Assembly: GCA_016179045.1 (NCBI GenBank)
Contig: JACOSL010000022.1
Location: 1 to 64,000 of the forward strand
Source of the DNA: Fimbriimonas ginsengisoli
GTDB lineage: Bacteria; Armatimonadota; Fimbriimonadia; Fimbriimonadales; Fimbriimonadaceae
Direction of reading: 5' to 3'
Length of the DNA stretch: 64,000 bases
The first letter of the stretch is position 1, and each line of letters begins with the position of its first letter. A program made the position numbers and the translations under genes. The notes under the pieces are model-generated. The model saw only the letters and a list, made by a program, of their open reading frames with translations, was not told the origin of the DNA and did not search any database. Below, in pieces: positions 8,476 through 36,423 of this stretch.

Positions 8476-8959
8476 CAACGGGGATTGTGGCTGTTTCCGG
8501 ACTCCATAGCGTGCCTTGCCGGGCCCCGGCTTACACTTGCGAGGCCAGTTGGTCGCGCTGCCTGATTGGTCCGGCCCCGCGGTCCTCTGCTAGCACGTGA
8601 GCGGCCCGGATGAGATCGCAACTACGGGCAACCTCCGCCTTGCGGCGGAGCGCCACCCCCGCTTCGGCTTCGCCTCAGCCGCCCCCGCCGTGTGGCAGGG
8701 GCGGGCTATTTTTCTTTGGTTCGCTCGTCCCGATTGCATCGGGACTCGCTCACCGTTTCATTTGCGGGACGCCATCCTTGGCACCCCCGCGGAAATTCGC
8801 GCATCGGAAGCACGATAGGCGCGAGACAGCGGATTCCAACGGGGCTTCCTGGGATTGTCCACACACATCGACGTGGCTCACCTAGCGTCGGTATCTCATC
8901 GATCCCGTGGCGACTCTGCTCTCTCCAGCCCCAACCGCATATTGCCGATGGAAAGGGGG
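8476..8959. other. Intergenic region, 484 nt, largely a palindromic repeat
   Basis: No credible gene. About 8480-8620 shows nothing recognisable. 8629-8785 is a modular palindromic repeat (separate entry), and 8800-8959 has no clear structure apart from the weak small-ORF start at its end. Confidence 0.6.
8629..8785. repeat. Modular palindromic intergenic repeat, copy 1
   Basis: Contains hairpins CTCCGCC/GGCGGAG (8633-8639/8644-8650), GCCCCCGCC/GGCAGGGGC (8681-8702) and GTCCCGAT/ATCGGGAC (8727-8734/8738-8745). It ends with CTCGCTCACCGTTT and a GGGACGCCATCC block. The same blocks in the same order recur at about 40761-40917, and parts recur at 23230-23345 and inside alaS. This is a dispersed repeat family. 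Confidence 0.75.
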
Positions 8960-23389: not shown

Positions 23390-23536
23390 AGCGATCCCCA
23401 ACAATCACCTCCATCCGACCTCAGCGAGCCTGCGGTCGACTTCCCCCTGCGCGGCAAGGGGAAGATGGGGAGGGCACGCTCCATCGTGCCCGAAGCGGGT
23501 GCAAGTCTCCACCTGTTCGGAGGAGCACCCCTTGTT

Positions 23537-33396: not shown

Positions 33397-36300
33397 ATGA
33401 CCGTCCGCGACCTGCGCGAGAAATACCTGGCGTTCTTTCAGTCGAAGCAGCACGATCTGTTTCCGTCGGGTTCGCTCGTCCCTTACGACGTGACCGGGCG
33501 GCTCGACGAGAGCCTGCTCTTCAACGGGGCGGGGATGGTGCAGTTCAAGCCCTATTTTAGGGGGGTGGTGAAGCCCAAGAACCCGCGCATCACGACGGTG
33601 CAGAAGTGCGTGCGCACGGGAGACATCGAGACGGCGGGCGACCTCACCCATCTCACATTTTTCGAGATGCTTGGCAATTTCTCGTTCGGCGACTATTTCA
33701 AAGACGTGGCGATCGCCTATTCTTGGGAGTTCATCACGGCGGCGGAGTGGCTAGGGCTCGATCCGAACCGAGTTGCGGTAACCGTGTTCGAGGAAGACGA
33801 CGAGGCCTACGGCGAGTGGGAGAAGCATTATCGGGCCGAAGGCATCGATCCGGCTTCGCGCATCTTCCGGTTGGGGGAGGAGACGAACTACTGGCCGGCG
33901 GGGGCGTTTTCGAGCGGCCCACCGGGTCCCTGCGGGCCGAATACGGAGATGTTCTACTGGACCTCGGGAGACGCTCCCTCTGGTTCGTATGGGAAGGAGC
34001 AGTTCGTGGCCGATGAGGCGGGCGGGAAGTGGCTGGAGTTCTGGAACGACGTGTTTATCCAGTTCGAGTGGCAAGGGTCGTTACGCAATCCCGAGCGGCC
34101 GGGCGATGGGTATGTGAAGGAGGGGATGCTGCCCCTGCCGTTCCAGAGCGTGGATACGGGGATGGGGCTGGAGCGGACGATCACGGTGCTGAACGGCAAG
34201 CGCGACATCTACGACAACGACGCGTTCGCGCCGATTCTGCGGAGGATCGAGGCGATCTTGGGTGGGTCATTCAAGTACGGTGCGGGCAACACGGTCTACG
34301 AGGAGACAGGCGGAGGCAGCCTACAGCCCTTTGCTGTCGTCCTGGATAGAGATTCCGCTGCGAGGGTTGTCGCCGATCACATCAGAACCGCAGCCTTTTG
34401 CATCGCCGACGGAATAATTCCGGGGAATGCAGGTCGCGGCTATGTTCTGCGCCGGCTGATCCGTCGAGCTGTGCTGAAAGGCCAGCGTGTGCTCGGATTC
34501 GCCCAGCCGTTCTCCCACGAAGTGTTCGAGGGCGTTATCGAGGCAATGGGCGGGTACTACAAAGAGCTTTCGGAGCGGCGCGACGTCATCGTGGAAACAT
34601 TGCGAAACGAAGAGGCGTTATTCCGGCGCACCGTTCACACCGGAGCCTCCATCCTGCGATCCCACATTGTCGACCTGGTGGCCGAGGCGGGGCTCAAAGA
34701 AGAGGGCAGTATGCTCCTCAGCAAGCCACTCCCGGTCAAGCCGCGTAAGTTGCCGGGCGTCGTCGCTTTCAAGCTCTACGACACCTTCGGATTTCCGCTC
34801 GAAGTCACCCAGGAGCTTTGCGCAGAGGCAGAGATCGAGGTCGACACCGAGGGCTACGAGAGAGCGATGCACGAGGCTCAGGAGCGATCACGCGGCGCAT
34901 CTGGCATGGATACGGTCTACACCTCAATTTCTGTAAAGGTGGCGATCGGCGAAGCGAGCGCGCTCGTCAAGGCAAACGACCCATCGGTCGCGGTCGACTC
35001 GCACCCGACGGCAACGCGGTTTTTAGGCTACGAATCGCTCGTGGCGAAGGCGCGAATCGTCGAGACGCGGCCCCAAGTGGACGGAGCGGGCCAGGCGACG
35101 GGCGAGTTGTTGCTCGCGCTCGACCAGACGCCGTTCTATGCCGAATCGGGCGGCCAGGTCAGCGACACGGGGGTGCTCATCGGCGACGGCTTCGAGCTGA
35201 AAGTGGTCAATCTCGCGCGGCACGACGGGGTGCTCGTGCATCGGGCCGAGCCCGTCGCGGGATCGTCCGGAACTCCTCCCCTTCAAGGAGGGGGAGGGCC
35301 TGTGAGTCCCGATCTGATCGGGACGAACAGGGGTGGAGGTTCTGATGGGGAGCACGGGCTAAAGCCCATGCCACCCGAAGTCGCCGCTTTGGTCGGCCAA
35401 GAGGTGCAAGCCCGGGTAGACGCTCCCCGCCGCCGAGCGACGCAGCGCAACCACACCGCGACCCACCTGCTTCACGCCGCGCTCCGCCAGGTGCTGGGCA
35501 AGCATGTGACCCAAGCGGGCTCGTACGTCGGTCCCGACCATCTGCGGTTCGACTTCACCCACGGCAAGGCGATGAGCCCTGCCGAGGTAGCGGAGGTCGA
35601 ACGCATCGTCAACGCCCAAGCGCTCGAGAACCTCGACGTGAAAACCTACCCCGATCTGCCGCTGGCGGAGGCCAAGGCGCGCGGGGCGATGGCGCTGTTC
35701 GGCGAGAAGTACGGCGAGGTCGTGCGGATGGTGGAGGTGGGCGATTTCAGCCGCGAACTGTGCGGCGGCACCCACGTTCGCACGACGGGCGAGATCGGGC
35801 TGTTCAAGATCAGGAGCGAGGGTAGCGCGGCGAGCGGGGTGCGGCGCATCGAGGCTCTGACCGGCGAAGAGGCCTATGCATGGGTGCTGGAAGCCGACCG
35901 GCGGTTGCATGAGGCGGCGGGCTTGCTCAAATCGAACCCGGCCGAGGTGGTGCACTCGCTTGGCGCGCTGCAAGAGGCGTTGAAGGAAGAGCGGCGGCGG
36001 CGCGAGCGGGCGGAGGCGGCCCTCGTGCGCGGAAGTGTTACTACGCAACACATCGCTGGAAAGGCGAGCATTGTGGCTGAAACCATTCTCGTGGGTGATG
36101 TGAAGCTCTGGACTCGCAAGTTCCAAGATCTCGACCCGAAGACGGTAGCCTCGGCGGTGGACGAGCGCGTTGCTTCCGATCCGAGCCTGGTCGCGCTGGC
36201 GGCGGTGGTGGCGGATGGCAAGGTGCAGATCATCTGCAAGGCGGGAGCAGGCGCCCTCGCCAAGGGCGTTCACGCGGGCCGCTTGGTGGGCGAAGTGGCC

Positions 36301-36423
36301 AAGATCTGCGGCGGCGGCGGCGGCGGCCGGCCCGATTTCGCCACCGCGGGCGGGCGCCTGCCCGAGAAGGTGGACGAGGCGCTGAAGGCGGCGGCCGGCG
36401 TCGTCCGATCTCAGATGGGCTGA
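33397..36423 (+). CDS. alaS: Alanyl-tRNA synthetase with extra internal segments
   Basis: A 1008-residue class II synthetase, about 120 residues longer than usual. Catalytic core: FNGAGMVQFKPYF, FFEMLGNFSFGDYFK (motif 2 region) and GRGYVLRRLIRRA (motif 3 region). Editing domain: HTATHLLHAAL, with CGGTH (about residue 789). C-terminal domain ends in a Gly-rich GGGGGGRPDFATAGG. ATG 33397 (MTVRDLREKY) is the family-like start; an in-frame start 51 nt earlier is rejected. Two insertions stand out: about 25-30 residues near 440-465, and residues 623-658 (35263-35370), where the DNA is a palindromic intergenic repeat read through in frame. It charges tRNA-Ala and deacylates mischarged tRNA. Confidence 0.96.
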   Translation: MTVRDLREKYLAFFQSKQHDLFPSGSLVPYDVTGRLDESLLFNGAGMVQFKPYFRGVVKPKNPRITTVQKCVRTGDIETAGDLTHLTFFEMLGNFSFGDYFKDVAIAYSWEFITAAEWLGLDPNRVAVTVFEEDDEAYGEWEKHYRAEGIDPASRIFRLGEETNYWPAGAFSSGPPGPCGPNTEMFYWTSGDAPSGSYGKEQFVADEAGGKWLEFWNDVFIQFEWQGSLRNPERPGDGYVKEGMLPLPFQSVDTGMGLERTITVLNGKRDIYDNDAFAPILRRIEAILGGSFKYGAGNTVYEETGGGSLQPFAVVLDRDSAARVVADHIRTAAFCIADGIIPGNAGRGYVLRRLIRRAVLKGQRVLGFAQPFSHEVFEGVIEAMGGYYKELSERRDVIVETLRNEEALFRRTVHTGASILRSHIVDLVAEAGLKEEGSMLLSKPLPVKPRKLPGVVAFKLYDTFGFPLEVTQELCAEAEIEVDTEGYERAMHEAQERSRGASGMDTVYTSISVKVAIGEASALVKANDPSVAVDSHPTATRFLGYESLVAKARIVETRPQVDGAGQATGELLLALDQTPFYAESGGQVSDTGVLIGDGFELKVVNLARHDGVLVHRAEPVAGSSGTPPLQGGGGPVSPDLIGTNRGGGSDGEHGLKPMPPEVAALVGQEVQARVDAPRRRATQRNHTATHLLHAALRQVLGKHVTQAGSYVGPDHLRFDFTHGKAMSPAEVAEVERIVNAQALENLDVKTYPDLPLAEAKARGAMALFGEKYGEVVRMVEVGDFSRELCGGTHVRTTGEIGLFKIRSEGSAASGVRRIEALTGEEAYAWVLEADRRLHEAAGLLKSNPAEVVHSLGALQEALKEERRRRERAEAALVRGSVTTQHIAGKASIVAETILVGDVKLWTRKFQDLDPKTVASAVDERVASDPSLVALAAVVADGKVQIICKAGAGALAKGVHAGRLVGEVAKICGGGGGGRPDFATAGGRLPEKVDEALKAAAGVVRSQMG
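35263..35370. repeat. Palindromic repeat inserted in frame within alaS
   Basis: A 108-nt (36-codon) segment containing an imperfect CTCCTCCCC...GGGGGAGG hairpin, GTCCCGAT-CTG-ATCGGGAC (35306-35324) and GGGCTAAAGCCC (35356-35367). The GTCCCGAT/ATCGGGAC arms are identical to those of the intergenic repeat at 8727-8745. The encoded peptide is Gly/Pro/Ser-rich. Confidence 0.75.

Follow-up and report, generated by a model that had tools for sequence, protein, structure and literature searches.

An in-frame mosaic of two unrelated palindromic repeats in the alanyl-tRNA synthetase gene of a Fimbriimonadaceae genome

REPs have been described in frame within genes, including tRNA synthetase genes of X. 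oryzae, E. litoralis, and S. alaskensis, and REP clusters can code for up to 82 residues (Di Nocera et al. 2013, PMC3733652). Most GTAG-20 elements of Opitutus terrae have GTGG, a variant of the GTAG tag (PMC3733652). Rickettsia palindromic elements (RPEs) also lie in frame (Ogata 2000, 2002; reviewed in PMC10969869), and intragenic copies are known for MITEs and other small mobile repeats such as ERIC and QMITE1 (PMC10969869). The phylum of the Fimbriimonadaceae is not mentioned in PMC3733652, and our literature search found no paper on such repeats in that phylum.

The window that we analyzed is a 64,000-nucleotide stretch (C21:1-64000) of a 2.27-Mb genome that is 92.7% complete, with 0.25% contamination, in 66 contigs. 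The nearest named relatives of this genome are Fimbriimonadaceae. The window carries alaS, whose open reading frame runs uninterrupted from the ATG at 33397 to the stop at 36423 and contains a repeat-derived insert. The gene and the parts of the insert are as follows.

33397-36423, + strand: alaS, encoding alanyl-tRNA synthetase (AlaS), 1008 aa, single copy (ORF, Pfam, genome search).
35263-35376, + strand: repeat-derived in-frame insert of 114 nt and 38 codons, residues 623-660, SSGTPPLQGGGGPVSPDLIGTNRGGGSDGEHGLKPMPP (no counterpart in AlaS of relatives, repeat edges from other genomic copies, AlphaFold low confidence).
About 35263-35342, + strand: element A, a modular palindrome built from outer arms, a single CTCCCC..GGGGAG hairpin, and an inner hairpin that varies among copies (dispersed copies, 16-copy alignment, fold).
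35306-35324, no strand assigned: inner hairpin of element A, GTCCCGAT-CTG-ATCGGGAC (genome search, ≤1 mismatch).
35343-35351, no strand assigned: 9-nt spacer between elements A and B, TGATGGGGA (read from the sequence).
35352-35376, - strand: element B, a 25-nt REP, GCACGGGCTAAAGCCCATGCCACCC, on the - strand GGGTGGCATGGGCTTTAGCCCGTGC, with GTGG ahead of the stem (exact repeat copy).

We found that the alaS insert is a mosaic of two unrelated dispersed repeat families in tandem, A and then B. Searching the genome with the insert segment returned matches to two separate parts of the query, its first ~80 bases and its last 25. Element A as the entire insert was ruled out, since the B repeat occupies 35352-35376. 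An earlier note on this DNA had described a palindromic repeat in frame in AlaS at 35263-35370 (108 nt, 36 residues) and implied a single repeat family. The repeat is present and free of stops, with its hairpin at 35306-35324. Two further hairpins that the note had reported are also there, CTCCCC...GGGGAG at about 35275-35297 and GGGC-TAAA-GCCC at 35355-35366, the latter being the core of the REP. The added residues are Gly/Pro rich, as stated there (18 of 38 are Gly or Pro). The extent had to be corrected to 35376, and the 3' part comes from a second family, a REP tied to the gene of a REP-associated tyrosine transposase (RAYT). That the insert has no stop is unremarkable, as 30% of mononucleotide shuffles are also open. 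The length of 114 nt was inferred from the repeat edges and the loop size; our AlaS comparison set consisted of Fimbriimonadaceae relatives from other genera.

The sequence of element B is GGGTGG-CATGGGC-TTTA-GCCCGTG-C, in which the stem has GTGG at its foot. It occurs at 30 places in the 2.27 Mb at ≤3 mismatches, 11 of them exact, compared with 0 for the reversed control, and the alaS copy is an exact repeat copy. The source genome has a single Y1_Tnp gene, on C27, which the NCBIfam model REP_Tyr_transpos identifies as a RAYT (96.5 bits; cut-off, 80). Within 0.8 kb of this gene, we found four B copies: three that start about 30 nt past the stop, and a fourth, inverted, about 40 nt ahead of the start. 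Element B thus has the features of REPs of the GTAG superfamily, namely, a short imperfect palindrome (20 to 40 bp) in many copies, a GTAG-like tetranucleotide, and inverted copies flanking a RAYT gene. On these sequence features, we classify it as a RAYT-associated REP of that superfamily.

Element B resembles GTAG-type REPs with a RAYT in its stem-loop, the GTGG before the stem, the flanking of the RAYT gene, and in-frame intragenic copies. In contrast to those REPs, the one in alaS is joined to the unrelated modular palindrome A, and the host belongs with the Fimbriimonadaceae. A further difference is that B is limited to the source genome among 85 of the family; it was not found in the 84 others at ≤2 mismatches, and we rejected it as a family-wide repeat on that count (0/84). 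The alaS insert is a well-supported addition to the in-frame intragenic REPs already reported, and its two-family mosaic in one essential gene is the most unusual feature.

Element A is present in the source genome (G000) in roughly 15 to 20 diverged copies of 71 to 86% identity, and its long relatives match with E values down to 4e-15. In an alignment of 16 copies, the outer parts TCCGGAA..CCTCCCC..GGGGGAGGG-CTGTGAG and CGAACAGGGGTGGAGG are constant and enclose a variable inner hairpin. The inner part is GTCCCGATNNNATCGGGAC or nearly identical in some copies, including that in alaS. The terminal inverted repeats are imperfect, with arms of 12 to 13 bp (GAACTCCTCCCC / GGGGTGGAGGTTC). GGGA stands on both outer sides of A in alaS (35259-35262 and 35348-35351) and is possibly, though weakly, a short target duplication; these flanks are found at the alaS copy only and are inconsistent over the other copies in the 16-copy alignment. 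Searched by itself, the inner hairpin occurs at 17 genomic places at ≤1 mismatch, compared with 0 for the control. One copy of the hairpin module lies upstream in the window.

8727-8745, no strand assigned: intergenic copy of the hairpin module, GTTCGCTC-GTCCCGATTGCATCGGGAC-TCGCTCAC (genome search).

This intergenic repeat had been proposed as kin of the alaS segment. The arms are indeed identical, but the link runs through the inner hairpin module of A alone. At 8727 the same hairpin sits within GTTC...TCAC flanks, and we rejected this repeat as a copy of element A. Among relatives, we found one partial match to A, in G054 (80% over 50 nt); a match in G025 falls in ordinary sequence and was discounted. 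Element A is thus essentially confined to the source genome. Its imperfect terminal inverted repeats and in-frame translatability recall MITEs and similar small mobile repeats. It may differ from MITEs in that no target duplication of constant length is evident over the A copies and in that no matching transposase emerged from a search that covered the RAYT family.

We found a third dispersed family, element C, with 42 matches in the genome and one copy in the window.

23406-23464, + strand: element C, about 60 nt, intergenic copy, with no real gene spanning it (genome search).

Repeat counts are based on genome searches and on the loci around the matches. Coding copies were sought by codon usage, which detects in-frame copies, while out-of-frame, gene-breaking insertions escape it. 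Most of the 66 repeat clusters that we examined have no real gene across them. The earlier note had suggested a search for other genes with the repeat. Other genes do carry the repeats in frame, e.g., on C37 and C43. On C37, a protein that fuses a sugar-ABC binding protein to a permease has a clean in-frame insertion of C plus A, about 74 aa, and its relatives are without it. On C43, a conserved protein of ~700 residues has an in-frame insertion of A, about 34 aa, where relatives have an empty site. Two cases of coding B copies are less certain than these. One case, on C64 (L016 455-518), is an anti-sigma-factor-like protein with two in-frame B copies 39 nt apart in a Pro-rich part (AHGLKPLPP...SHGLKPMPP); the other is a small secreted-looking protein on C27. 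Neither Pfam nor NCBIfam named the host proteins on C43, C64, and C27.

A methyltransferase-like ORF on C50 (C50:14343-14691; L195 725-2164) contains C, A, and more C one after another in frame, about 110 residues. Its homologues align only ahead of this repeat-rich middle, and the insertion is likely only. At loci L021, L023, L007, and L198, differing palindromic repeats (the hairpin module, GGACGCCAT..ATGGCGTCC, A, and B) often lie ≤~100 nt apart, as if repeats insert near repeats.

The earlier note had compared the segment to RPEs while assigning it to a different repeat family. The comparison stands in the sense of working alike: the alaS insert is palindromic, dispersed, lineage specific, in frame in unrelated genes that include enzymes, and tolerated as extra peptide. 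Element B, however, is of the RAYT/REP kind. RPEs are about 150 bp and unusually often intragenic, whereas most of the 66 clusters here are intergenic, without the unusually high intragenic share of RPEs, and the insert is partly RAYT linked. The likeness is drawn from the description of RPEs rather than from their sequence, and we do not claim that the insert is an RPE.

AlaS itself appears intact. All three AlaRS domains, tRNA-synt_2c, tRNA_SAD, and DHHA1, were found by Pfam well over cut-off. The editing-motif residues H686, H690, C789, and H793 are invariant across 32 AlaS sequences, and codon usage is strong both 5' and 3' of the insert; thus, alaS looks like a working gene. We found one AlaS match in the source genome (92.7% complete), namely, alaS of the window. 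Because the gene is single copy and the editing-site residues are intact, AlaRS with the insert probably keeps working.

To locate the insert, we used alignments and structures, both of which the earlier note had suggested. The insert is missing from AlaS in other Fimbriimonadaceae. The connection from VLVH to VDAPRRR spans 16 to 58 residues in 48 relatives and 59 in the window AlaS; without the 38 insert residues it would be 21, equal to that in L171 and L177. In solved AlaRS structures, the flanking strands are joined by a turn of 4 to 6 residues (2zze 587-594; 2ztg and 3wqy, about 575-580). AlphaFold gave residues 632-655 a pLDDT of <50, predicting a disordered loop flanked by the confident strands 612-619 and 669-674; for the whole AlaS model, the mean pLDDT was 80 and the pTM 0.50, with the arrangement of domains uncertain. 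Based on the alignment to solved AlaRS and the low-confidence segment, the insert most likely forms a disordered loop on the surface of the beta-barrel ahead of the editing domain. By the note's own terms, its reading would fall if distant AlaS homologues conserved the segment as protein or if homologous intergenic repeats were absent elsewhere; we found neither, as relatives do not have the segment and such repeats exist elsewhere in the genome. In the same AlphaFold model, residues 293-315 (34273-34341) and 499-536 (34891-35004) are also of low confidence and may be further lineage-specific loops.

We propose that two non-autonomous palindromic repeats very probably inserted into alaS of this lineage and persisted because the frame was kept and the surface loop tolerates length. 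Since B copies flank the RAYT gene, the RAYT of the same genome most likely placed B in alaS. Element A, a separate modular palindrome, would have been placed by some other mobilizer. Frame-keeping insertions in a tolerant loop would alone have survived. Since this single-copy gene is presumably essential, every insertion step must have kept the frame, unless A and B arrived together. A with the spacer comes to 89 nt and B to 25; with these edges, which are too inexact to decide, the total of 114 is divisible by three and neither part is. Judging by the open frame, the insert would be translated as 38 Gly/Pro-rich disordered residues between two beta-barrel strands, and the insert-free allele would read HRAEPVAG-EVAALVGQEVQARVD. 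The finding brings palindromic repeats that are apparently translated to a genome of the Fimbriimonadaceae, and it shows that a loop in a single-copy essential enzyme can collect two unrelated repeat families. Cases of this kind could reveal protein loops that accept random peptide and serve as natural tests of whether a repeat-encoded peptide stays neutral or gains a role.

The frames in which the repeats are read bear on whether the peptide matters. The coding B copies in alaS, C64, and C27 all read HGLKPMPP or HGLKPLPP, and four of the six frames of B are open; these are three cases, too few to claim selection. The A copies of alaS and C43 share a frame over the inner hairpin (VSPDLIGTN and VNPALIGTN). 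We consider it unlikely that several repeat families keep adding peptide in filtered or favored frames (HGLKPMPP for B; VSPDLIGTN or VNPALIGTN for A), so that flexible linkers arise repeatedly and the one in AlaRS now changes the enzyme on its editing side. We give little credence to the idea that the peptide was retained since it changes AlaRS, e.g., in editing, tRNA binding, or contact with a partner. The insert does adjoin the editing domain, and the single frame of the coding B copies would fit a retained peptide. However, the residues are Gly/Pro rich and predicted to be disordered, the same peptides occur in unrelated proteins, and the B of AlaS still matches the repeat exactly and thus has no sign of later refinement.

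The insertion of two repeats is also preferred over ordinary length variation of a permissive loop with incidental similarity to repeats, which we regard as highly improbable. Relatives vary widely in this loop (16 to 58 residues), and three of them, L032, L034, and L035, have 56 to 58 residues with no such repeat known there. This variation does explain why the site tolerates extra residues. As a full explanation it is refuted by the nucleotide matches, i.e., the exact 25-nt repeat with 30 copies against a control of 0 in the 3' part and E values down to 4e-15 in the 5' part.

Folding suggests another reading, in which the hairpins act at the RNA level by slowing ribosomes or being bypassed or removed, and so tune AlaRS synthesis. 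Few if any shuffles fold as well as the insert segment (z of -3.7 for RNA and -3.1 for DNA), and the predicted RNA fold is highly stable, at -56 kcal/mol. However, the open, in-phase frame means that no bypass or splicing is needed, we found no Rfam match in the alaS region, and the same families occur in unrelated genes and mostly between genes; thus, we hold this reading to be more improbable still. The least probable is an assembly or binning artefact, a repeat-driven false join inside alaS of a metagenome-assembled contig. Short-read assemblies do break and misjoin at dispersed repeats, and this genome consists of 66 contigs. However, the sequence on either side of the insert encodes AlaS in one shared frame, every expected segment is there, and contamination is 0.25%. 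In addition, other genes have the same kind of in-frame insert, and a false join would rarely preserve both frame and gene identity.

We also observed an exact B copy on C43 (C43:23477-23501; L150 1501-1525) where a gene for a DnaE-type polymerase with PHP and DNA_pol3_alpha domains begins. The sole start codon between B and the PHP domain is the ATG of B. The REP may therefore supply the start codon of this gene.
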